Shown: in pieces, positions 1,433 through 12,025 of the stretch | Numbering within the stretch: the first letter of the stretch is position 1 | How the letters are laid out: each line of letters opens with the position of its first letter | NCBI GenBank assembly: GCA_016218905.1 | Contig: JACRCS010000283.1 | Location: forward strand, 1-13,107 | Length of the DNA: 13,107 bases | Origin: Deltaproteobacteria bacterium | Lineage (GTDB): Bacteria; Desulfobacterota_C; Deferrisomatia; Deferrisomatales; JACRMM01 | Reading direction: 5' to 3' | Made by a program: the position numbers and the translations under genes | The notes under the pieces: generated by a model | The model's database searches: none | Told to the model about the DNA's origin: nothing | The model's input: the letters and a program-made list of their open reading frames with translations, nothing else

Positions 1433-2470
1433 CTAGACGCACCCGGTCTGGGTGTCAAGCGATGCGCAAGCGCCGTTTTGCGGAGGTCGGGCGACGCGGC
1501 GTAGGGCGACCTCGAGGAAGCGGGACAGGAGCTCCGGATAGCCGTAGCCGGCCCGAGCCGCCGCGGCGACGAAGCCGCTCTCGGGCGAGATGCACGGGTT
1601 GGCGTTGATCTCCAGCACCCACGGCTCGCCCGAGCGGTCGACCCGGAAGTCGACACGGGCGTACCCGGCGAGGCCGAAGTGGCGCCAACACGCCGTGGCC
1701 ATCGAAGCCAGCCGCTCCAAGAGCGCCCGGTCCGAAGCGGGAAAGTCGAAGGAGCGGGGAGTGTTCCGGTACTCGAACGACGCGGCGTCCCATTTCGCGC
1801 GATAGCAAACCATTCGAGGCTTTTCGGCCGGGTAGCCGGCGAAGCGGATCTCCGCGGGAGGGAGCACTTGGGGCCCGTCCGCCGTCTCGAGGAGAGAGAG
1901 GTTGAACTCGCGGCCTTCGATGTACCGCTCGGCGAAGCACTCCGAGCCCAGGCGAAGCGTTCGTGCCCGAGTCTCCGCCCAGACGCGGTCGCCTCGAGAG
2001 ACGACGGACGTCTCGTCGATGCCGACGGAGGCGTCTTCCGAGACCGGCTTGATAATGGCGGGCGTCGGGATCCGAGCCCCGGCGGCGAGCTCCCTCTCGG
2101 TGGCCCAGGCCGGCGTCGGCAGCCCCGCAGCCACGAGCCAGCGCTTCGCGAGGACCTTGTCCGACGTGAGGAACAGGGCCTGCGTCGGCGCGCCGGTGTA
2201 CGGGAGTCGGAGCCGGTCGAGGAGCGCCGGCGCGAAGTGGGCGAGATCGCCCTTCCCTTCGAGCGTCTCGACCAGGTTCACGACCACGTCGGGAGAGAAG
2301 CCGGTCAGGGCCCGGGCTCCCTCGTCCAGCCGGAGCGAGAGCGGGACGCGCGCGGTCTCGTGCCCGAGCCGGCGAAGCGTCTCCTCGGCCAGCTCCACCT
2401 CCCGGAGGACGTCGAGCTCGTCGGCGGGGGCCTCCTCGGGCACGGCTCCGAAGAGGAGCGCCACCCTCAT
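1433..2470 (-). CDS. D-Ala-D-Ala-ligase-like ATP-grasp enzyme, intact active site (last gene of the KamA operon)
   Basis: This 345-residue protein has the usual length for the Ddl-like ATP-grasp family, which activates a carboxylate as acyl phosphate and joins it to an amine. Visible motifs are a Ddl-like pre-grasp segment with RLPYTGAP (89-95), SDK (103-105), the ATP-binding PAIIKP (137-142, Lys141), a Ser/Gly loop SEDASVGID (144-152), ERYIEGREFN (181-190), ARVDFRVD (271-278, Asp274 and Arg276), and the metal-binding Glu287 and Asn289 of LEINANP. All catalytic and Mg-binding positions I can align are present. The ATG at 2470 overlaps the preceding gene's stop by 4 bp (ATGA), which implies translational coupling; frame extensions further upstream lie inside the previous gene. 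Its context with KamA and two other ATP-grasp genes argues against a cell-wall Ddl role. The true substrates cannot be read from sequence. Confidence 0.9.
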   Translation of the reverse strand: MRVALLFGAVPEEAPADELDVLREVELAEETLRRLGHETARVPLSLRLDEGARALTGFSPDVVVNLVETLEGKGDLAHFAPALLDRLRLPYTGAPTQALFLTSDKVLAKRWLVAAGLPTPAWATERELAAGARIPTPAIIKPVSEDASVGIDETSVVSRGDRVWAETRARTLRLGSECFAERYIEGREFNLSLLETADGPQVLPPAEIRFAGYPAEKPRMVCYRAKWDAASFEYRNTPRSFDFPASDRALLERLASMATACWRHFGLAGYARVDFRVDRSGEPWVLEINANPCISPESGFVAAAARAGYGYPELLSRFLEVALRRVARPPQNGACASLDTQTGCV

Positions 2471-3465
2471 CGGCGCGCGCCGGTCCGTAGTCTCGCCTCG
2501 TCGACGATCCTCCGGATGAGTTCCCGGTAGGGCATGCCGAAGAACCCGCAGACGATGGGGAGGTCGGAGTGCTCCGGGTGTAGGCCCGCCAGCGGGTTGA
2601 CCTCCAGGAAGTTGGGAACCCCGGCCGCGTCGCACCGGACGTCGACCCTCCCCCCGTCCCGGCACCCGAGCGCGCGCCAGGCGGCGAGGGCGCACGCGGC
2701 GACGCGGTCACCGAGCTCGCCGCGCGCGGCTCGATAGTCAACGAGGAGCTCGCAACGCTCCTTGTTCACGTACGAGTACACCTCGGGCTCGGCGGTCTCC
2801 CGGAGCAGGACTTCCATCACGCCGACGGACTCGGCCCGGGTACCGGTTCCGAGCACGCCCACCGTGAACTCCCGTCCGGGGAGAAAGGTCTCGACCAGAA
2901 CCGGCTGGTCGAAGAGCTCCAGCAACCTTCCGCAGACGGCCTTCAGCTCCCGCCGATCGCGCACCTTCGAGGCGGCCGTGATCCCCTTCCCCGTCCCCTC
3001 GGCGAGCGGTTTCGCGAAGAGGGGGAAGGGAAGTTCGAGCCCATCGGCGTAGCTCTCGGTCTCGACGAGGGCGAAGTCGGGAGTCGGGATGCCGACGTCC
3101 CGGACCACCCGCTTGGCCATGCCCTTGTGCAGCGTGAGGGCGCAGGTCAGGGGATCGGAGAAGGTGTACGGGATGCCGTAGGTGTCGAGGAGGGCCGGGA
3201 CCACGGCCTCCCGCCCGTACCCGTTGAGCCCCTCCGCGATGTTGAAGACGAGCTCCCAGCGGTGCCCGGCGGCGAGGCGGGAGACGAGGCTCCGGGCGTG
3301 GCCGATGCGGTCCGTCTCGTAGCCGAGCTCCCGCAGGGCCCCCTCGATGGCCTCGATCGTGTCCGGGCGGTCGAACTCCGCTGTCTCCTCTTCGCCGTAC
3401 CCCTCGGCCAAGTAGTCGTCGCGTAAGTCATAGGTGAGACCGACGATCGTCCGCGGGCCGGGCAT
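2467..3465 (-). CDS. D-Ala-D-Ala-ligase-like ATP-grasp enzyme of the FNIAEG type, intact active site
   Basis: This 332-residue ATP-grasp ligase belongs to a Ddl-like branch marked by FNIAEG (74-79), then GREAVVPALLDTYGIPYTFSDP. Further motifs are HK (113-114, where canonical Ddl has DK), FAKPLAEGTGKGI (150-162, ATP-binding Lys152 and the glycine loop), VETFLPGREFTVGV (191-204), GRVDVRCD (272-279, Asp275 and Arg277) and the metal-binding LEVNPLAGL (287-295, Glu288 and Asn290). The last is followed by HPEHSDLP. Length and motifs indicate an active enzyme forming an amide from a carboxylate and an amine at the cost of ATP. The ATG at 3465 lies 2 nt after the KamA stop, with no clear Shine-Dalgarno, so translation is probably coupled to KamA. 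It overlaps the next ATP-grasp gene by 4 bp. The two intact ligases differ in sequence and probably catalyse successive condensations. Confidence 0.92.
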   Translation of the reverse strand: MPGPRTIVGLTYDLRDDYLAEGYGEEETAEFDRPDTIEAIEGALRELGYETDRIGHARSLVSRLAAGHRWELVFNIAEGLNGYGREAVVPALLDTYGIPYTFSDPLTCALTLHKGMAKRVVRDVGIPTPDFALVETESYADGLELPFPLFAKPLAEGTGKGITAASKVRDRRELKAVCGRLLELFDQPVLVETFLPGREFTVGVLGTGTRAESVGVMEVLLRETAEPEVYSYVNKERCELLVDYRAARGELGDRVAACALAAWRALGCRDGGRVDVRCDAAGVPNFLEVNPLAGLHPEHSDLPIVCGFFGMPYRELIRRIVDEARLRTGARR

Positions 3466-3467
3466 GC

Positions 3468-4583
3468 TCAGCAGCCGGTGAAGAGGCCCAGGTGCCCGGC
3501 GCAGTCGGGTTCCGCAGCGAGCGGCGGCGCCTCCGGGCGCGACGTTTCGTCGGGGTAGACGTAGAGCTCGTCGCGGTAGTTCCGCAGCACCATCCTCGCG
3601 CCGTCCCGCTGGACGGTGTCCTCCGGCAGCAGCGGGATCTTGCCGCCGCCGCCCGGCGCGTCGATGACGAACTGCGGCACGGCGAGACCCGAGGTGTGGC
3701 CGCGAAGGGCCCGCACGACCCGGAGCCCCGTCTCGACGGGCGTGCGGAAGTGCTCCGTTCCTTCCACCAGGTCGGCCTGGTAGAGGTAATAGGGACGAAC
3801 CCGGCAAGCGAGCAGCCGCCGGTTGAGCTCGAGGAAGACCGCGGGATCGTCGTTGACCCCGTGCAGGAGCACCGACTGGTTCCCCAAGGGGATTCCCGCG
3901 TCCGCCAGGCGGCCGAGCGCGACCGCCGCCTGAGCGGTGAGCTCCCGGGGGGGATCGACGTGGGTGTTGACGAAGAGCGGGTTGTACTTCCGCAGCATCC
4001 GGGCGAGGCGGCGGGTCACCCGGTGGGGGAGCGTACAGGGGACCCGAGTGCCGATCCGGATCACCTCGACGTGGCGAATCCGCCGTAGTCCCAGCAGGAT
4101 GTCCTCGAGGACCTCGTCCGGCAGGAGGAGCGGGTCGCCCCCGGAGACGATCACGTCCCGAACCTCCGGCGTCCTGGCGATGTAGTCGAGCCCCTCCCGC
4201 CGCATCTCCTCCGTGATGCGCTGGTCCTTGCCGACCTTCCGCTTCCTCGTGCAGAAGCGGCAGTACATGGCGCACCGCGTGGTCACGAGGAAGAGGGCCC
4301 GATCAGGGTAACGGTGCACGACGCACGGAACCGGACTCGTACTCTCCTCGGCCAGCGGGTCGGGGAGCAGGGTGGTAGGCTCCAGCTCGGCCGGATCCGG
4401 GATGCACGGCCGCCCGATGGGATCGTCCGGACGCTCGGCGAGGCTCAGATAGTACGGGTTGATGCACATCGGATAGACTTCCGCCACCTCGTCGAGGGCC
4501 GCCACGTCGAGGTTCGGATAGAAGAGCGAGAGTTGGATGGGCTGCCGAAAGGCCGAGGCGAGAAGCTTCTGCCACAGTTCCAT
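3468..4583 (-). CDS. kamA: KamA-family radical SAM aminomutase (lysine-2,3-aminomutase type)
   Basis: This 371-residue enzyme uses S-adenosylmethionine, a 4Fe-4S cluster and PLP to move an alpha-amino group to the beta carbon. The radical SAM motif is CAMYCRFC (Cys104, Cys108, Cys111), followed by TRKRKVG. SAM-binding SGGDP is at 147-151, GTRVP at 178-182 and NTHVDPPRE at 206-214. The PLP lysine lies in DAPGGGGK (Lys315). Two Asp residues that hold the lysine side-chain amine in the clostridial enzyme appear conserved, as Asp271 in YQADLVEGTEHFR and Asp308 in VIDAP. This favours L-lysine over glutamate as substrate. The clostridial zinc-site Cys in GVNDC is Asp246 here and the C-terminal Cys cluster is missing, so the protein resembles the shorter KamA/EpmB forms. 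It lies 6 nt after the GNAT stop and 2 nt before the next ATP-grasp gene. The EpmB role (EF-P modification) is less likely because no epmA or efp lies nearby. Confidence 0.93.
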   Translation of the reverse strand: MELWQKLLASAFRQPIQLSLFYPNLDVAALDEVAEVYPMCINPYYLSLAERPDDPIGRPCIPDPAELEPTTLLPDPLAEESTSPVPCVVHRYPDRALFLVTTRCAMYCRFCTRKRKVGKDQRITEEMRREGLDYIARTPEVRDVIVSGGDPLLLPDEVLEDILLGLRRIRHVEVIRIGTRVPCTLPHRVTRRLARMLRKYNPLFVNTHVDPPRELTAQAAVALGRLADAGIPLGNQSVLLHGVNDDPAVFLELNRRLLACRVRPYYLYQADLVEGTEHFRTPVETGLRVVRALRGHTSGLAVPQFVIDAPGGGGKIPLLPEDTVQRDGARMVLRNYRDELYVYPDETSRPEAPPLAAEPDCAGHLGLFTGC

Positions 4584-4589
4584 CTGAGC

Positions 4590-5096
4590 CTACAATCCTC
4601 CGGTCCGGCATAGCGGTTTCGTGTAGATGAGCTTCGCGCGCCCGGGTCGATAGAAGTCCGGTACGCGCGCCACCTTCCGGAAACCGCGGGCAGCGTAAAA
4701 AGTCATCGCGGGCTCATAGCCTCGAGCCTCTTCCGTCTCGGCGACGAGCAGCCGGCCCCCGCGTGCGGTCAGCTCCGCCTCCACGGACCGGAGCAGCCGG
4801 CTGGCGACCCCACGCCCCTGCGCCTCGGGGCTGACCGCGATCCAGTAAAGGTCGAAGGTCCCTTCGGTACACGGTGTGGGGCCGTAGCAGGCATAGCCCG
4901 TCGGCGCTCCCCCTCGGGCGGCGACCCGGAATAGGTACCCCGAGGCTTCGCCCCGTTCGAGCCCGGCATCGATCAACTCCTCGGCCACTTCCACTTCGTC
5001 GGGCCGAAAGGCGCCCGTCTTTCGCAGCAGTCCGAGGAGCGCCTCCCGGTCCCCCTCCTGCAGCGGGCGGAGCTCGTCCGAGCTCAGCGATTCCAC
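4590..5096 (-). CDS. GNAT-family N-acetyltransferase of the KamA operon
   Basis: This 168-residue single-domain GNAT protein transfers an acetyl (or other acyl) group from CoA to an amine. Motif A is seen as LYWIAVSPEAQGRGVASRLL (83-102), with the pyrophosphate-binding QGRGVA loop at 93-98. The later FYAARGFRKVARVPDFYRPG block (133-152) holds the usual tyrosine (Tyr134) and the GF that closes the fold. I chose the GTG at 5096: a GGAGGA lies about 5 nt upstream, inside the preceding gene, giving a 13-bp overlap with it. Much longer extensions of this frame lie within that gene and lack support. The stop is TAG, followed 6 nt later by the KamA start. By analogy with the ablA/ablB pair that makes N-epsilon-acetyl-beta-lysine it may acetylate a KamA product. 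It is, however, shorter than AblB as I know it, so the substrate is inferred from context only. Confidence 0.88.
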   Translation of the reverse strand: MESLSSDELRPLQEGDREALLGLLRKTGAFRPDEVEVAEELIDAGLERGEASGYLFRVAARGGAPTGYACYGPTPCTEGTFDLYWIAVSPEAQGRGVASRLLRSVEAELTARGGRLLVAETEEARGYEPAMTFYAARGFRKVARVPDFYRPGRAKLIYTKPLCRTGGL

Positions 5097-6052
5097 GCGT
5101 CCTCCACCAGCCGTTCGAGGAAGTCCTCGTAGGTGTCGCCGGAGGCCTCGACGGCTCGAGCGAAGGGACCTGCCCTCGACAGGTCCGGCGCCGTGTCGAC
5201 GCCGAAGACGTGGGGATTTCCCCTCCCGTCGAGCCGCAGGCCGATCCACGCGCAGTAGCAGCATTCGAGGGCCCGATAGGCGGCCAAGGCGGCCGTGGCG
5301 ACGCTCACGCGGAGGTGCTCTCCCATCTCGGCCGGGCACCGCGGTTCGAACGGAACGCCCTCGGCGAGGACGCGCGGTCGCTCGTCCTCGCTCGGCCCGA
5401 AGGCGATCTCCATCACCGAGACCGCCCGCGCCACCCGCCCCCGGCCGGAGACAGCAACCCCGAACTCCCTGCCGTCCAGGTACACCTCGGCCAGGGCGGG
5501 CTGGTGCGTGGAGTCCAGCACCTCTTCCACCCGGCGGCAGAGCTCGTCGGGCGTACGGACGAAGGAGTTCAGCGGGAGGCGGGCTCCGGGGCCCGCCCGG
5601 AGCGGCTTCACGACGAGGGGGAACGCCATGTCCCGCACCGCGTCCCGGTGGGGCGCCGTGCGGAAGACGCGGGCTCCCGGCGTGGGGATGCCGGCGGCGG
5701 AGAGGATCGCCTTCGTGAGGCGCTTGTCCAGCGCGCACGTGAGCGTGCGCGCGCCGTTGCCGGCGAAGCGCAGCCCGTGGAAGGCGAGGAGCGCGGCTAC
5801 GAGCGGGGCGTGCTGCGGGTTGCGGTCCAAAGCGCCGCAGAGGTTCACGACTGCGATCTCGTCGCGGCGGAGGGCGAGTTCGGCAGTCGTCGCCAGCAGG
5901 TCTTCCGCGGTGACGGCACGAGCTTCGGCCGCGTAAGCCGCGTTGACGAGGCCGGCGCAGACGTCTGAAGCCGCGCTCGAGGCGTCGCTCCCCTCGGAGT
6001 GGAGGACGACCGCGGCGCGGAGGCCGGGCCTCGCTATGCCGGCGTCAGCCAT
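5084..6052 (-). CDS. Degenerate D-Ala-D-Ala-ligase-like ATP-grasp protein (first gene of the KamA operon)
   Basis: This 322-residue protein has a clear Ddl/ATP-grasp layout: LRFAGNGARTLTCALDK (94-110), GIPTPG (121-126), FPLVVKP (144-150, Lys149), LAEVYLDGREFGVAV (187-201) and a C-terminal helix. Its metal site is broken. Where the sister genes read VDFR and LEIN or LEVN, this one reads WIGLRLD (269-275, Gly271 for Asp) and FGVDTAPD (283-290, Gly284 for Glu and Asp286 for Asn). The glycine/serine loop after the KP motif is also unusual (RAGPGARLPLNS). It may be a non-catalytic partner, an allosteric subunit or an enzyme with altered chemistry. The start is uncertain: ATG at 6052 has a GAAGGA that is too close, and a TTG at 6091 would add 13 residues. 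It follows the promoter at 6418-6445 after a leader of about 360 nt and overlaps the GNAT gene by 13 bp. Confidence 0.85.
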   Translation of the reverse strand: MADAGIARPGLRAAVVLHSEGSDASSAASDVCAGLVNAAYAAEARAVTAEDLLATTAELALRRDEIAVVNLCGALDRNPQHAPLVAALLAFHGLRFAGNGARTLTCALDKRLTKAILSAAGIPTPGARVFRTAPHRDAVRDMAFPLVVKPLRAGPGARLPLNSFVRTPDELCRRVEEVLDSTHQPALAEVYLDGREFGVAVSGRGRVARAVSVMEIAFGPSEDERPRVLAEGVPFEPRCPAEMGEHLRVSVATAALAAYRALECCYCAWIGLRLDGRGNPHVFGVDTAPDLSRAGPFARAVEASGDTYEDFLERLVEDAWNR

Positions 6053-6488
6053 GTCCTTCGGCGCGGCAGGGGTGCCGCAACGCTCCGGCAAGCGCGCGCC
6101 GCACGGGCAGAGTCAAATTGTGGAGGCGAGAAGCTTCAAGGCGGGCCGCGCCGGAGCTTCGGGCCGGAGCGGACGTCGTCGCAGGAGTGGGGGCCGGCAG
6201 GGGCCGGGCAGCAGCGAGGGCCGCAGCCGGCGACGGAGGTTCCTCTTCCTCCTCCGGCGCGACCTGCGACGGGATGCTTCGCATCTCGGTCCGGCAAGGC
6301 GTGGGTGCCTTTCGGCTTTGGTGGTGCACGGAAGCGTCTCCCCGGGTCGACAGCTCTCTCGCCCCGCCCGAACCCGCGCGGACGGGATCCCCGGGGCCAG
6401 CCCGGGATTCGGGCGTAATCATACCCATGGTCGACCCTCAGTCAACGCATTTCTGCCGAGCTTTTCCGCGCCGCGGGCGCGCGGGCGC
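6053..6488. other. Long leader of the KamA operon and aroF 3' flank, no supported gene
   Basis: The stretch between the aroF stop and the first operon gene holds a promoter (6418-6445) and about 360 nt of probable 5' leader. Within the leader, read on the minus strand, is a purine-rich tract (6255-6240) whose GGAGG can fold back onto CCTCC at 6239-6235. A 5-7 bp hairpin with a 3-nt loop sits at 6271-6287. A 6-bp GC hairpin (6467-6481) lies just after the aroF stop but has no U-run, so it is a poor terminator. The one open frame crossing the leader (6428-6045) begins upstream of the predicted transcription start and encodes low-complexity Ala/Pro/Arg sequence. I do not call it a gene. Confidence 0.5.
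6418..6445 (-). promoter_or_regulatory. Sigma-70-type promoter for the KamA/GNAT/ATP-grasp operon
   Basis: On the minus strand TTGACT (6445-6440) is followed after 16 nt by TATGAT (6423-6418). Each hexamer matches the consensus at 5 of 6 positions, which stands out in this GC-rich DNA. Transcription would start near 6411, just after aroF, so the five-gene operon need not depend on aroF read-through. The TTGACC/TTGACT elements here and at 736 and 7814 suggest the same housekeeping sigma factor. Confidence 0.65.
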
Positions 6489-7523
6489 TCAGGATCGCCG
6501 TCCGGCCGCTTCGGCGAACCGACGGACCTTCGCCATCATGTCCGCAAACTCGCCGGGAGAGAGGCTCTGAGGCCCGTCGCAGGCGGCCTCTCCGGGATTG
6601 CGGTGCACCTCGACGAGCAGTCCGTCCGCGCCGGCGGCCACGGCGGCGAAGGCCATGCGAGGCACGTACCGCGCCAGCCCCGTGGCGTGGGAAGGGTCGA
6701 CGATGACCGGCAGGTGGCTCTTCTGCTGGAGGACCGGCACCGCGGAGAGGTCGAGCGTGTTACGAGTGGCCGTCTCGAAGGTCCGAATTCCCCGTTCGCA
6801 GAGGATCACCCTCGGGTTCCCGTGCGCCAGGACGTACTCGGCGCTCATCAGGATCTCCTCGACGGTCGTCATCATCCCCCGCTTGAGGAGGACCGGCTTC
6901 CCCGCCCGGCCGAGACACTTCAGGAGGGCGAAGTTCTGAGCGTTGCGGGCGCCCACCTGGAGGACGTCCGCGTAGGCGGCCACGAGCGGAATGTCCTGGG
7001 GATTGACCACCTCGGTCACGACGGGCATGCCCAGGCGCTGTCCCACCCGAGCGAGGAGCTCGAGCCCCCGCTCCTCGAGGCCCTGGAAGGCGTACGGGCT
7101 CGAACGGGGCTTATACGCGCCGGCCCGAAGGAGCTGGGCGCCAAGCTCCTGCACGGCCACCGCCGTTTCGAAGAGCTGGTCCTCGCTCTCGACGGAGCAC
7201 GGCCCGGCGAAGGTGACGACACGCTCGCCGCCGACGACCACGCCCGGCGCCACTTGGACCTTGCTCCCCTCGGGGTTGCTGCTCCGGGAGGCGAGCTGGT
7301 ACGGCTCGGACACCTCGATCACCTCCCGGACTCCGGGCAGGTTTCGCAGCGCCTCGGCCCGTTCGTCCTTCGAGGCCGAGGGACGGGCGGGCCCTCCGAC
7401 GGCCCCGATGACGGTCCGGTCCGGGTGCTCGAGCAGGTGCGGCGTGAGCCCGTAGGCTTCGATCGCCCCGAGCACCGCCTCCATATGACCGCTCACGATG
7501 GGGGATTGCAGGACTACGATCAC
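6489..7523 (-). CDS. aroF: 3-deoxy-7-phosphoheptulonate (DAHP) synthase, type I-beta with N-terminal regulatory domain
   Basis: This 344-residue enzyme condenses phosphoenolpyruvate and erythrose 4-phosphate, the first step of the shikimate pathway to Phe, Tyr and Trp, in the cytoplasm. Residues 1 to about 90 form a ferredoxin-like domain as in Thermotoga-type DAHP synthases, where it gives feedback control. The barrel carries AGPCSVES (106-113, metal ligand Cys109), RAGAYKPRSSPYAFQG (133-148), QVGARNAQN (189-197), LLKRGM (212-217), CERGIRTFE (242-250), DPSHATG (276-282, His279) and VEVH (304-307). All key residues look intact. The start is GTG at 7523, with AGGAGG (7531-7536, complement) 7 nt upstream, which fits the length of the family. 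It is preceded by a leader peptide gene and a hairpin that together look like an attenuator (7606-7756), so its expression should respond to charged aromatic tRNAs as well as to feedback on the enzyme. Confidence 0.96.
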   Translation of the reverse strand: MIVVLQSPIVSGHMEAVLGAIEAYGLTPHLLEHPDRTVIGAVGGPARPSASKDERAEALRNLPGVREVIEVSEPYQLASRSSNPEGSKVQVAPGVVVGGERVVTFAGPCSVESEDQLFETAVAVQELGAQLLRAGAYKPRSSPYAFQGLEERGLELLARVGQRLGMPVVTEVVNPQDIPLVAAYADVLQVGARNAQNFALLKCLGRAGKPVLLKRGMMTTVEEILMSAEYVLAHGNPRVILCERGIRTFETATRNTLDLSAVPVLQQKSHLPVIVDPSHATGLARYVPRMAFAAVAAGADGLLVEVHRNPGEAACDGPQSLSPGEFADMMAKVRRFAEAAGRRS

Positions 7524-7890: not shown

Positions 7891-7920
7891 TTGACGCCCT
7901 TCCGAAGCCACTGATATAAT
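7891..7920 (+). promoter_or_regulatory. Strong sigma-70 promoter of the LuxR-type regulator gene
   Basis: TTGACG (7891-7896, 5 of 6) and a perfect TATAAT (7915-7920) are separated by 18 nt. The expected transcription start is near 7927, about 33 nt before the ATG at 7960. It is the best promoter match in the window and the only one on the plus strand. Confidence 0.75.
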
Positions 7921-7959
7921 TCGGCAAAACCTGGTCCTAAAGTGGGAGAGGTTTCGTCC

Positions 7960-9099
7960 ATGCAAGGTGCCTCGGGAATCGAATGTTTGACGCCTAAAGA
8001 GACCACGGGTGTTTTGGACGTGCTCTCGTCTCCCGACTGCGGGTGCTCAGTCCAAGCCTTTCGAGAGAAGTGCCTCGAGTACCTGATGGATACCTTCGAC
8101 GCCCAAGCCGGAATATTCTTCCTGCGTGACAGCCGGTCGGCAACGATCAATCTCGAAAACGCCCTTTACAAGCACTTCGACCGTCAGCGATCCATCGAGG
8201 CTTACCGACAACGGTACCGGCACTCTGACCCGTGCCACCTCAGGGGCTTTGACACCTTGAGCGTCCATTGCATGGTGCTCGAGTATGGCGAACGCCGACT
8301 CCGCCACAACGAGTTCTACAGCGACTTTCTCGCCGAAAGCGGAATCATCGATCGGATGGTCATCGCCCTATCGGTGAACGGGCGGGGTCTAGCATCACCC
8401 GTTCTCTTCCGCTGCCGAGGGGAGCCAAGCTTTACGCTCCGCGAGAAGGCAAAGGCCGCGACCTTGAGGCCCTATCTCAGCGGTGGAATGTTCCGGTCTC
8501 TGCAAGCCGAGAGGGCGCATGAAGCCGAGTGGGTGCTCAGCGCGTCCGCGGACAATGTAGGGGATCGGGGGCTCGTCGTCGTGGATGGGGACATGTCCGT
8601 CGCGTTTGCCAACTCGGCCGCTAGAGAGATCTTCCTCCTCGAAAACGAAACGGGCGGGATGGAGGTGGGCGCCAGGGGAGAGTGTCGCCTCCCCGATGCA
8701 CTTATGGCCATGTGCGGGCACCGCCTTGAGAATGCCCGCGCGGAGCGCTGCCTTGAGAAGACCGCCGAGGTTCTCACGATTGGCGAAGTGCCCTTGCGAG
8801 TCTGGGCAAGCGGGCTCTCGGGCCGGTTCTGCGAGGAGAGGAAGGACTATCTGGTCCTCCAGATCGAGAGGCTTTCCCAGCCAAGCTCGAAACTCGACGA
8901 ATCCGCAGTGTCCTACTTCGGTCTAAGCGCACGTGAGGCAGAGATCGCGGCGGCCATCGCCGAAGGCCATCGAAACGCGGAAATCGCCGAGCGGCTGTTC
9001 ATCAGCATCTTTACTGTCGAGAAGCACATACAGAATCTATTCCGGAAAGTCTCCGTCAGCAGCAGGACCGCACTTGTATCCAAACTCGTGCGGCGATAA
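7960..9099 (+). CDS. LuxR-family (GerE-type HTH) transcriptional regulator with GAF/PAS-like sensor region
   Basis: This is a 379-residue DNA-binding regulator. The C-terminal 60 residues are a typical LuxR/GerE helix-turn-helix: FGLSAREAEIAAAIAEGHRN, then AEIAERLFISIFTVEKHIQN and LFRKVSVSSRTALVSKLV. Residues 30-180 look like a GAF-type sensory fold, and residues 204-225 (GLVVVDGDMSVAFANSAAREIF) read like a PAS domain core, followed by a linker. There is no receiver-domain Asp and no clear acyl-homoserine-lactone pocket motif, so the ligand is unknown. I chose the ATG at 7960, with GGGAGAGG 8 nt upstream; a GTG at 7942 would add 6 residues. It is the only plus-strand gene, convergent with the MMPL transporter genes and divergent from aroF. 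By eye its codon use looks less GC-biased than its neighbours, which may point to separate ancestry. Control of the adjacent transporter operon is possible but unproven. Confidence 0.9.
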   Translation: MQGASGIECLTPKETTGVLDVLSSPDCGCSVQAFREKCLEYLMDTFDAQAGIFFLRDSRSATINLENALYKHFDRQRSIEAYRQRYRHSDPCHLRGFDTLSVHCMVLEYGERRLRHNEFYSDFLAESGIIDRMVIALSVNGRGLASPVLFRCRGEPSFTLREKAKAATLRPYLSGGMFRSLQAERAHEAEWVLSASADNVGDRGLVVVDGDMSVAFANSAAREIFLLENETGGMEVGARGECRLPDALMAMCGHRLENARAERCLEKTAEVLTIGEVPLRVWASGLSGRFCEERKDYLVLQIERLSQPSSKLDESAVSYFGLSAREAEIAAAIAEGHRNAEIAERLFISIFTVEKHIQNLFRKVSVSSRTALVSKLVRR

Positions 9100-9571: not shown

Positions 9572-10237
9572 TCATGGCGGGAGGTCCGGCGTGGGTGCCA
9601 GCTCCGGCGCGGTCCGACCGTTGAACGCGGCCGGTTGCACGACGGGTGCCCTGCCCGGCAGCAGGAAGGTTGCCAGCGCCGGCAGGAGGATCAGTGCGCC
9701 GAGCATGTTCCAGACGAACATGAAGACGAGGAGGATGCCCACGTCGGCCTGGAACTTGATCGGGGAGAAGCCCCAGGTGGCCACGCCGAAGGCGAGCGTG
9801 AGCCCGGTGAGCACGACCACCCGGCCCGTGAAGCAGAGCGTGTTGTAGTAGGCCTGGGAGAGGGACCGGCCAGCCGAGAGGTGCCCCAGGACGACGCTCA
9901 GGATGTAGAGGGCGTAGTCGACGCCGATGCCGACGCCGAGGGCGATGACCGGGAGGGTGGCGACCTTGACGCCCATCCCGAGCTTCACCATGAGCGCTTC
10001 GCAGAGAACCGACGTGAGCATCAGCGGCACGACCGCGACGACCACGGCGCGCCAGGAGCGAAACGTGATGAAGCAGAGGAGGATGACCGCGCCGTAGACC
10101 CAGAGGAGCATCTCCCGGCTCGCCTTCTTCACGACGATGTTGGTGGCCGCGTCGATCCCCGCGGTCCCGGCCCCGAGGACGAACTTCGCGTCCTTCGTGT
10201 CGTTGTCCTTCGCGAAGCCCTCCACCGTGTCGACCAC
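9572..10237 (-). CDS. C-terminal part of MMPL/RND transporter, separated from its N-terminal part by an in-frame TAG
   Basis: This 221-residue open frame lies in the same reading frame as the gene ending at 10256. The 6 codons between the TAG and this GTG (AETLTR) continue the same protein, so this is one gene broken by a nonsense codon and not a separate gene. It holds the end of the second periplasmic loop (1-40) and the last membrane helices, roughly at 43-58, 64-84, 91-113, 138-157 and 165-193. Helix three carries GVGIGVDYALYI with the Asp107-Tyr108 pair. In MMPL/RND transporters an Asp-Tyr pair of this kind is part of the proton relay. A Pro-rich tail ends in TPDLPP. No Shine-Dalgarno precedes the GTG, so independent translation is doubtful. 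The long antisense frame here is a GC artefact. Confidence 0.7.
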   Translation of the reverse strand: MVDTVEGFAKDNDTKDAKFVLGAGTAGIDAATNIVVKKASREMLLWVYGAVILLCFITFRSWRAVVVAVVPLMLTSVLCEALMVKLGMGVKVATLPVIALGVGIGVDYALYILSVVLGHLSAGRSLSQAYYNTLCFTGRVVVLTGLTLAFGVATWGFSPIKFQADVGILLVFMFVWNMLGALILLPALATFLLPGRAPVVQPAAFNGRTAPELAPTPDLPP

Positions 10238-10255: not shown

Positions 10256-12025
10256 CTAGTGGTCCTTGAGGAACACGGAGAGGGTGAGGAGGCTGCACGA
10301 GTCGTTGTAGAGACCGCGCGGCGCGCCGCCGGTGATCGTGTTGATCATGTTCTGGTTTCGGGGCACGTCGTACCACTTGAGGCTGCCCTCGCTGTAGGCC
10401 CCGTAGAACCGGCGGTTGAGGAGTGCGAGCGAGGTCGTCGACTCGACGCCGTCCACCTGGCGCAGGATCTCGTCCAAGGCGTCGAGGCGCATCACCGTGT
10501 CGCGGAGGCTGCACGCGTTGTCGGGCGTCTCCACCATCACGGCCAGCACGTCGCTCGAGGCGCCGTAGTGGGCGTTCAGGTAGGCGTTGTCGCGGTTGTA
10601 GCGCGAGTCGGGCCGAAGCTCCGGGGCGCCCGGATCGAGGTCTCCGATCTTCAGGTCCTCCCGAACGTAGAGCCCGGCCCCGGCGAGCACGAGGCTGACC
10701 ACGATCGCCGTGGCGGCCCACTTCCTCCGGGTGAAGAGGTCGAGGAAGCGCCAGAACCAGTTCTTCTCCGCTCCGGACCGCTCCGCCTTCTCCTGCGACA
10801 GGCTTCGGGCCGCGGCCTTGGGGTTGACGCCCGTGTAGGAGAGGCAGATCGGGAGCAGGATGAGGTTCGTGAAGATCAGGATCGCGACGCCGATGCTCGA
10901 CGTGATGGCGAGGTCGCGGATGACCTGGATCTTGATGACCATCAGCACGATGAACCCCACGGCGTCGGCGAGGAGCGCGGTCAGACCCGGCAGGAAGAGG
11001 CGCCGGAAGGTGTAACGCGCCGCGACCACGCGGTGGGTCCCCCGCCCGATGTCCTGCATGATGCCGTTCATCTTCTGAGAGCCGTGGCTCATCCCGATCG
11101 AGAAGATGAGGAAGGGCACGAGGATCGAGTAGGGATCGAGCTCGTACCCGAGGAGCGGCAGGAGCCCGAGCTGCCAGACGACGGCGATGAGGGAGCACGC
11201 GACCATGAGCCCGGTGCTCCTCCAGCACCGGATGTAGTACTGGCGAAGCCCCGCGTCGATCAGGATCGCGCCGACGAAGAAGACGAGGAACCACCGCAGC
11301 GCGCCGATCAGGTCTCCGAGCACCTTGGCAAAGCCCGTGATGTGGATCTTGACGCTCTGGCTCTGGTACTTCTGCCGCACCTTCTCGAGGCTCTCGGAGA
11401 ACTTCCCGTAGTCCAGGGGCTTTCCCGTCTGGGGGTCCTTGGAGAGGAGCGGCAGGTAGATGATGCTCGACTTGAGGTCCGGAGCCACGAGCTGCCCGAT
11501 CTCGCCGGAACGGTCGACGTTTCGGTGCACCTGCTCCACGCTCTCGGGCGAGCCGTCGTAGGCGTTGGGGACCACGGGGCCCGACTCGAAGCCCTCTTCG
11601 GTCACGCCCCACCACCGGGTGGAAGGGGTCCAGAGCGACTTCATGTAGGCTCGATCGACGCCCGGCAGCAGGAAGACCTCGTCGCTCACCTTCTGCAGGG
11701 TGCCGAGGTAGTCCTTGTCGTAGATCGTGCCCTTCGTCGTCTCCACCGCGATGCGCACGGCGTTTCCGAGCCCGCCCAGGTCGGACTTGTGCTTGAGATA
11801 GTTCACGATATAGGGGTGCCGGGTAGGGATCGTCTTCTCGAAGCTCGCGTTCAGGCGAAGCTTCGTCATGCCGTACCCGAGGGCCAGCGTGACGGCGAGG
11901 CAGACGAGCATCACCAGGCCCCGGTGGTTGAAGAGCGCCCGCTCGATCAGCGTTCCCGAGCTCTTGTCGAACTCCTCGAGCGTGCGGACGACCGGTTGAT
12001 TCTCCAGGGACTTGCCGGGCTTCAT
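10256..12025 (-). CDS. MMPL/RND-superfamily transporter, N-terminal 589 residues up to a premature TAG (probable pseudogene or read-through)
   Basis: RND-type exporters use proton flow to move lipids or hydrophobic compounds out of the inner membrane. With its continuation to 9572 the full product would be about 817 residues, normal for the family. Membrane helices are visible near residues 37-54, then 241-258, 270-288, 298-315, 343-364, 374-396 and 436-453. A large periplasmic loop fills 55-240 and the second loop begins at 454. FSIGMSHGSQKMN (308-320) and RYTFRRLFLPGLTALLADAVGF (337-358) are typical of the branch. Translation stops at TAG (10256-10258) after SVFLKDH, in the middle of the second loop. 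The truncated product lacks five helices and the proton-relay Asp-Tyr, so it should be inactive. The ATG at 12025 overlaps the stop of the YCF48-like gene by 4 bp, showing a shared operon. Confidence 0.88.
   Translation of the reverse strand: MKPGKSLENQPVVRTLEEFDKSSGTLIERALFNHRGLVMLVCLAVTLALGYGMTKLRLNASFEKTIPTRHPYIVNYLKHKSDLGGLGNAVRIAVETTKGTIYDKDYLGTLQKVSDEVFLLPGVDRAYMKSLWTPSTRWWGVTEEGFESGPVVPNAYDGSPESVEQVHRNVDRSGEIGQLVAPDLKSSIIYLPLLSKDPQTGKPLDYGKFSESLEKVRQKYQSQSVKIHITGFAKVLGDLIGALRWFLVFFVGAILIDAGLRQYYIRCWRSTGLMVACSLIAVVWQLGLLPLLGYELDPYSILVPFLIFSIGMSHGSQKMNGIMQDIGRGTHRVVAARYTFRRLFLPGLTALLADAVGFIVLMVIKIQVIRDLAITSSIGVAILIFTNLILLPICLSYTGVNPKAAARSLSQEKAERSGAEKNWFWRFLDLFTRRKWAATAIVVSLVLAGAGLYVREDLKIGDLDPGAPELRPDSRYNRDNAYLNAHYGASSDVLAVMVETPDNACSLRDTVMRLDALDEILRQVDGVESTTSLALLNRRFYGAYSEGSLKWYDVPRNQNMINTITGGAPRGLYNDSCSLLTLSVFLKDH

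Follow-up and report, generated by a model that had tools for sequence, protein, structure and literature searches.

The window analysed here, the 13,107-nucleotide (nt) stretch of contig JACRCS010000283.1 in the deltaproteobacterial assembly GCA_016218905.1, carries on its minus strand an operon of five closely packed genes, read from the open reading frames (ORFs) between positions 6052 and 1433. The gene order is ATPg1-GNAT-KamA-ATPg2-ATPg3, where ATPg1, ATPg2 and ATPg3 are names coined in this analysis for the three ATP-grasp ligases. It is proposed that the operon is a rebuilt member of a widespread pathway, in which KamA, two ligations and the GNAT acetyltransferase would produce an acetylated beta-lysine di- or tripeptide. 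We give this reading a probability of about 0.55. The existence of the pathway is well supported, while we infer its product and role.

The distribution of the gene set was followed with ATPg2. In a search of about 5.8 billion proteins, 8000 ATPg2 candidates were scored, all at E ≤ 1e-20; the top 120 include the window protein itself, the others being 65–76% identical to it. An alignment of 25 ATPg2 proteins, the window's included, was then used as query in a scan of the genome collection, where ATPg2 relatives are encoded in 549 stretches. According to record titles, which are mostly labels of metagenome-assembled genomes (MAGs) and were taken unchecked, relatives occur in Deltaproteobacteria/Thermodesulfobacteriota groups, Calditrichota, Planctomycetota, Bacteroidota, Omnitrophota and Acidobacteriota, as well as in Krumholzibacteria, Fibrobacteres, Sumerlaeota, Bacillota and Alphaproteobacteria. 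Locus counts refer to the best 80 of the 549 stretches. These loci are not independent, and as they were selected through ATPg2, the genes should not be ranked by the order of the counts. In 79 of the loci KamA is located upstream of ATPg2, in the same orientation and at most about 0.8 kb away; ATPg3 is found near ATPg2 in 75 and a GNAT of the same family in 60. Eleven of the 20 loci without GNAT have less than 1.5 kb of contig after ATPg2, and the GNAT family was found in six of nine genomes searched, namely eight without a linked GNAT and that of locus L001 as positive control. The recurrence of these families together in related loci is more than chance, and the usual gene set is KamA-ATPg2-ATPg3-GNAT. 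Loci L081–L090 have short flanks, some come from genomes of earlier loci, and they were left uncounted; nine of them have KamA, and the tenth is again from G001, the genome of L001. L001 is the sole KamA miss among the 80 loci and the closest relative of the window by ATPg2 (75%). From a reading of the translations, reverse-transcriptase-like and PIN-like frames lie upstream of position 9995 of L001, where KamA usually sits.

The association was further analysed at the genome level in 198 genomes of the phylum of G001, with a threshold of E ≤ 1e-60 for ATPg2, and with KamA searched by its LAM_C domain in the same genomes. ATPg2 is present in 69 of them. KamA of at least 60 bits, a threshold chosen after viewing the list, was detected in 66 of the 69 ATPg2 genomes (all but G001, G034 and G072) versus 14 of the 129 others (Fisher p 1.7e-34, uncorrected for relatedness). 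At the looser threshold of E ≤ 1e-3, the figures are 68 of 69 versus 45 of 129. One of the 14 genomes with KamA and without ATPg2, G184, carries an ATPg3-type ligase. The starts of ATPg2 and KamA are less than 2.5 kb apart in 47 of the 69 genomes, and within 6 kb on one contig in seven more. Chance neighbourhood as the cause of the ATPg2-KamA association is rejected by this contrast. The first-pass annotation of the window had set co-occurrence of the gene families in other genomes beforehand as the test of its proposal, and the linkage and genome-level results strongly favour a shared pathway.

KamA is strongly predicted to convert L-lysine into beta-lysine, because the lysine-binding residues are conserved. 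Residues 36–345 of its 371 residues align to the lysine 2,3-aminomutase of Clostridium (PDB 2A5H), with which it shares the iron-sulfur, pyridoxal phosphate (PLP) and lysine-binding residues, although it is shorter at both ends (371 vs 416 residues). In an alignment of the window KamA with 20 operon KamAs, all 21 sequences have the CxxxCxxC motif and unchanged residues at the positions equivalent to R134, D293, D330 and K337. The motifs around D293 and D330–K337 (lysine/PLP) are both fitted by 71 of the 74 operon KamA ORFs longer than 300 residues. We take D293 and D330 to be the pair of residues that holds the side-chain amine of lysine and that is replaced in glutamate aminomutase, and R134 and K337 to be the carboxylate-binding arginine and the PLP lysine, respectively. 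The window KamA scores 262.8 bits against the KamA-family model TIGR00238, above the cut-off of 199.2. Its best-scoring NCBIfam model is the AblA equivalog TIGR03820, with 425.8 bits below a cut-off of 525.4; the operon KamA of L007 and the KamA of L115 reach 490.5 and 519.8 bits with the same model. No lysine-fermentation gene was identified among the window proteins by Pfam scan.

The Pfam scan revealed Dala_Dala_lig_C in all three ligases, a GNAT domain in the acetyltransferase, and Radical_SAM together with LAM_C in KamA. The ligases have the fold of the Ddl/VanA D-alanine-D-alanine ligases, but their scores with the Ddl model TIGR01205 (ATPg1 61.7, ATPg2 113.9 and ATPg3 100.6 bits) are far below its cut-off of 245.65, and alignments to solved Ddl chains display another omega-loop pair: the Lys-Tyr of Ddl is replaced by Lys-Trp in ATPg3 and by Lys-Glu in ATPg2. 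In a tree built from a subsample of loci, without true Ddl sequences, ATPg2 and ATPg3 form two separate Ddl-fold families, which are kept as a pair and are joined in a single ORF in L016, L025 and L029. Both are predicted to form amide bonds in an ATP-dependent manner. The profile of the GNAT family matches PDB 2R7H at 4.2e-58, a member of the same family whose name, 'putative D-alanine N-acetyltransferase', is that of the depositors; we know of no demonstrated activity for it. The AblB model TIGR03827 is not matched by the window GNAT even at E ≤ 10, a threshold at which eight other models are.

From these elements the following pathway is proposed. KamA would convert L-lysine into beta-lysine. 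ATPg2 would activate a carboxylate with ATP and form a first amide bond in which one partner is beta-lysine, ATPg3 would add another residue, and GNAT would acetylate a free amine of the resulting compound. This compound is likely to be a small acetylated di- or tripeptide containing beta-lysine, largely neutral in charge. The core set has neither a transporter nor a carrier protein, which suggests a soluble cytoplasmic compound, most likely a compatible solute or a nitrogen store kept in the cell; the role of osmolyte is favoured, with a chance of perhaps one in three. In 16 of the 80 loci a gene for a protein of about 590 residues with a histone-deacetylase (HDAC) domain (261 bits) is present. 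The N-terminal part of this protein is GNAT-like, just under the Pfam cut-off (26.6 vs 27), and the protein has no NCBIfam match at 1e-10. Where present, it could remove acetyl groups, so that the compound may be made and reclaimed. A single contig in L125 (60–4604) carries an HDAC-type gene flanked by a window-type KamA on one side and a second KamA, of another type, on the other. The first-pass annotation had already proposed a beta-amino-acid product built by two ligases in sequence. Two distinct, paired ligase families and a shared pathway agree with this proposal; the order of the steps, the product and its role stay at the level of inference.

Several observations weigh against a beta-lysine peptide. 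L001 has ATPg2-ATPg3-GNAT and no LAM_C match was found anywhere in the G001 assembly, hence beta-lysine may be dispensable or the MAG may be incomplete; LAM_C is matched only weakly in G034 and G072. The three loci without nearby ATPg3 and without a contig end to explain it (L006, L041 and L075) carry KamA-ATPg2 with neither ATPg3 nor GNAT nearby; elsewhere in the genomes of L006 and L075 there is a strong ATPg3 match (1.7e-138 and 1.0e-131), and in that of L041 only a weaker one (4.4e-75). No osmotic gene was recognised among the identified recurring neighbours, a list which is incomplete. The window and 15 loci gave no Rfam match, riboswitch or other, at the gathering threshold, and riboswitch control was discarded on this basis. 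Finally, one lineage has the ligase pair beside polyamine genes and not KamA. Among 16 stretches of the phylum of L001 with weaker ATPg2 matches, ATPg2 and a further ligase are present in all, GNAT in 13 and KamA within the stretch in 11. The five KamA-less stretches (L099, L100, L101, L103 and L104) have a pyruvoyl-dependent arginine decarboxylase (PdaD) upstream of ATPg2, and agmatinase and/or a deoxyhypusine-synthase-like (DHS-like) gene. This lineage weighs against a pure beta-lysine peptide, because such a peptide leaves those neighbours unexplained.

The same genes speak for the least unlikely of the alternatives, in which the ligases join beta-lysine, or its peptide, to a polyamine (putrescine or a spermidine analogue), giving a beta-lysyl polyamine amide that can be acetylated. 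PdaD matches were obtained in 11 loci from seven genomes of the divergent lineage. PdaD lies at most 1 kb from ATPg2 in nine genomes and at most 2 kb from ATPg3 in G184, and all ten PdaD-linked genomes retain one strong KamA, which in G208 lies at a distance of 458 kb and in the others on a different contig. As these KamAs score at least 84 bits, the replacement of KamA by PdaD as diamine supplier was rejected. Six of the distant KamA neighbourhoods contain mostly housekeeping genes, with a MerR-like regulator in three, as read from translations. The polyamine amide is also favoured by L039 (13743–15140), where a single ORF encodes both GNAT and an agmatinase-type protein (221.1 bits against the TIGR01230 cut-off of 174.3), a hint of a step involving polyamines or guanidines, by a PAD_porph protein, without NCBIfam name, after GNAT in L060, and by the HDAC-like protein, whose best solved relatives (PDB) are acetylpolyamine amidohydrolases. 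However, among the 80 loci PdaD and DHS queries matched none and agmatinase two; 13 of 33 genomes examined, several of them with the operon, have no PdaD; and the adjacency of the polyamine genes may reflect no more than shared descent within one lineage. In the mechanism of Ddl, moreover, the acceptor is an amino acid. The polyamine amide is judged unlikely, and the acetylated beta-lysine peptide is preferred.

Modification of a macromolecule (peptidoglycan, lipid or protein) with beta-lysine or its peptide is improbable. Ddl-fold ligases serve the synthesis of cell-wall precursors, and the beta-lysine used on EF-P is produced by EpmB, a related KamA. However, the window KamA scores 219.5 bits with the EpmB model TIGR03821, under its cut-off of 369.3, and the three ligases are far under the Ddl cut-off. 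Apart from an Asp/Glu racemase-family protein that neighbours the operon in five loci, no wall, lipid or translation gene was recognised among the identified neighbours, as far as this incomplete list extends.

Production of N-epsilon-acetyl-beta-lysine alone, with the ligases as chance neighbours from another pathway, is more improbable still. KamA and GNAT do correspond to the pair of activities of ablA-ablB, as described in PMC1224877 and PMC3543383. The tie of ATPg2 and KamA in 79 of 80 loci, which persists when the genes lie apart, speaks against it. In addition to the missing match of the window GNAT, AblB (TIGR03827, E ≤ 1e-3) was detected in none of 14 operon-class genomes (12 genomes behind loci, G212 and G213), versus five of 14 control genomes; GNAT as AblB was rejected on both results. 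The weakest alternative is a secreted, antibiotic-like or metal-binding beta-lysine peptide: ATP-grasp ligases do make bioactive peptides in other clusters, but the core set has no exporter, the membrane neighbours (AI-2E-type in 10 loci, phosphate transporter in eight, DUF486 in some) are none of them general, and the broad conserved spread across phyla is unlike secondary metabolism.

The operon of the window differs from the usual gene set, and its origin was analysed with trees of KamA and of the ligases. The KamA tree comprises 110 proteins: 73 of 76 operon ORFs (>380 residues) and 37 from the hit list of the window KamA. It was built by a quick method with midpoint root, and its outside sampling is one-sided, being drawn from the window KamA's own matches. 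In this tree 72 of the 73 operon KamAs form one clade (Shimodaira-Hasegawa-like approximate likelihood-ratio test, SH-aLRT, 99), and the window KamA falls outside, among its own best homologues; the KamA of L016 branches on the same side on a long branch. The relatives of ATPg1, some of them named Deferrisomatales, comprise 25 close (E ≤ 1e-72) and five distant proteins, and the family falls on the ATPg3 side of the ligase tree. The checked residues are intact in 17 of the 26 close members, counting the window protein. In the other nine, the window's included, the Lys-Trp of the omega-loop is gone and the metal-binding Asn is changed; eight of these nine, again with the window's, form one branch. 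Three working ligases were therefore rejected because of the catalytic residues lost in ATPg1, and the 'two intact ligases' of the first-pass annotation are correct. G212, a genome from the class of G001, has a divergent ATPg2 (ATPg2') followed by an intact ATPg1, GNAT and KamA. The window GNAT and KamA are 58% and 77% identical to those of G212, which is also matched by the ATPg1 family. ATPg2 and ATPg3 of the window, in contrast, pair with L001 in the ligase tree (support 100/98 and 98/97).

As ATPg2 and ATPg3 pair with L001 while GNAT, KamA and ATPg1 match G212, the simplest account is that the operon is a hybrid, with KamA, GNAT and the inactive ATPg1 probably derived from one operon version and ATPg2-ATPg3 from another. 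An ATPg2'-ATPg1-GNAT-KamA operon would have taken in a foreign ATPg2-ATPg3 pair, lost ATPg2' and retained the inactive ATPg1. A non-catalytic role of ATPg1, or its translational coupling to GNAT, is possible, because it remains an open frame in several relatives. That the hybrid arose as a chimera during assembly is made less likely by a G+C content of 0.64–0.73 along the operon without clear step, and by gene ends that are coupled across it. Furthermore, close relatives of the window KamA (P0125) and ligase (P0003) both have a longest contig of 3,230 bases, which suggests one shared contig. The five-gene set put forward initially is a real operon in a derived, hybrid form, its first ATP-grasp being a dead relative of the third. 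A broader proposition, that a beta-lysine peptide or beta-lysyl polyamine amide pathway extends across many phyla, that its product is made, reclaimed and a major cytoplasmic solute, and that the ligase pair of the window was swapped while an inactive ligase stayed in place, is given somewhat under even odds.

The features of the operon are given in Table 1. As noted at the outset of the work, the minus-strand genes are tightly coupled, and the ORF coordinates bear this out: ATPg1 and GNAT overlap by 13 nt, gaps of 6 and 2 nt separate GNAT from KamA and KamA from ATPg2, and ATPg2 and ATPg3 overlap by 4 nt. The single promoter claimed with them corresponds to one sigma-70-like match located 366 nt ahead of the ATPg1 start codon, which is a consensus match only; the window contains four such matches versus a shuffled mean of 0.4.

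Table 1. Positions of the operon genes and of the upstream promoter match in the window
Feature	Position	Strand	Details
ATPg1, Ddl-fold ATP-grasp on the ATPg3 side, catalytically degenerate, first gene	5084..6052	-	322 aa; PF07478, 49 bits
GNAT acetyltransferase	4590..5096	-	GTG start; 168 aa; PF00583, 48.5 bits
KamA, lysine 2,3-aminomutase-like radical SAM protein	3468..4583	-	371 aa; PF04055 and PF12544
ATPg2, Ddl-fold ligase retaining its catalytic residues, first member of the working pair	2467..3465	-	332 aa
ATPg3, Ddl-fold ligase retaining its catalytic residues, second member of the working pair	1433..2470	-	345 aa
Sigma-70-like promoter match TTGACT-16-TATGAT	6418..6445	-	Consensus scan only

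Upstream of the operon and in the same direction, a DAHP synthase gene (6489–7523, minus strand) lies 436 nt away. The minus-strand protein that follows the operon (818–1387) belongs to no Pfam family and has its own promoter-like site (1458–1430). On the plus strand (region 7891–9099), a LuxR-type regulator gene (7942–9099) is preceded by a near-consensus promoter match (TTGACG-18-TATAAT); its product displays a weak likeness to BagY/FevT (64.8 bits vs a cut-off of 700). The minus-strand gene at 12025–10256 is membrane-transporter-like, with a weak MMPL match of 18.2 bits under the cut-off of 20.5. It seems to run on in another frame at 10237–9572, and overlaps by 4 nt with a YCF48-like beta-propeller gene (13095–12022).

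Among the 80 loci, less general neighbours than those of the usual set include, besides the AI-2E-type and phosphate transporter genes mentioned above, a sigma-54-type regulator (14 loci), Fpg (14 loci) and a DUF47/PhoU-like protein (eight loci). Neighbour clusters c10, c17 and c18 gave no identification, and c3 was dropped as antisense ORFs. In L102 and L112 a sigma-54-type response regulator is located inside the operon region, between ATPg2 and KamA; in L112 a PAS/histidine-kinase-like frame, from a reading of the frame, stands beside it. In planctomycete and Omnitrophota loci (L043, 9460–10038; L044, 4496–5017; L060, 9520–10029), KamA and ATPg2 are separated by a small gene of CxxCxxCC type, assigned by Pfam match for L044. 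A DUF486 DMT-type membrane protein, assigned by Pfam match for L009 (12024–12371) and by likeness for L007, L014, L018, L040, L047, L049 and L050, is encoded between ATPg3 and GNAT or just past ATPg3.

Two known systems resemble the proposed pathway. N-acetylglutaminylglutamine amide (NAGGN) is presumably made without a non-ribosomal peptide synthetase, by a fusion of a GNAT with a Ddl-like ATP-grasp ligase, and with what we take to be an asparagine-synthase-like amidotransferase as partner. In the window, by contrast, GNAT and ligases are separate ORFs, two ligases are present instead of one, and a source of beta-amino acid is built in. No amidotransferase was found among the ten window proteins scanned or the neighbours identified. 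The ablA-ablB system of methanogens and some bacteria likewise combines a lysine 2,3-aminomutase with a GNAT acetyltransferase, without carrier protein. Here, two Ddl-fold ligases accompany KamA, KamA remains below the AblA cut-off and GNAT does not match AblB. Both systems offer precedents for an acetylated solute: according to PMC1224877, beta-lysine is acetylated to an osmolyte by ablAB, and NAGGN is an acetylated dipeptide solute like the proposed product. Such precedents are likewise drawn from PMC3543383 and PMC9337991.

Each activity is of a known kind, and no paper presenting the combination was found among the open-access papers listed in literature searches, as judged from titles and the beginnings of abstracts. 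Where source records name the proteins, they call them 'D-alanine-D-alanine ligase', 'lysine 2,3-aminomutase' or 'KamA family radical SAM protein', and through these borrowed names a gene set whose marker ligase is encoded in 549 stretches stays hidden. The genome-level association defines a four-gene set that is open to testing. If the proposal is true, sulfate-reducing, syntrophic, planctomycete and other mostly uncultured lineages contain beta-amino-acid metabolites of a class that has gone unrecognised and could be sought directly by expression and mass spectrometry.

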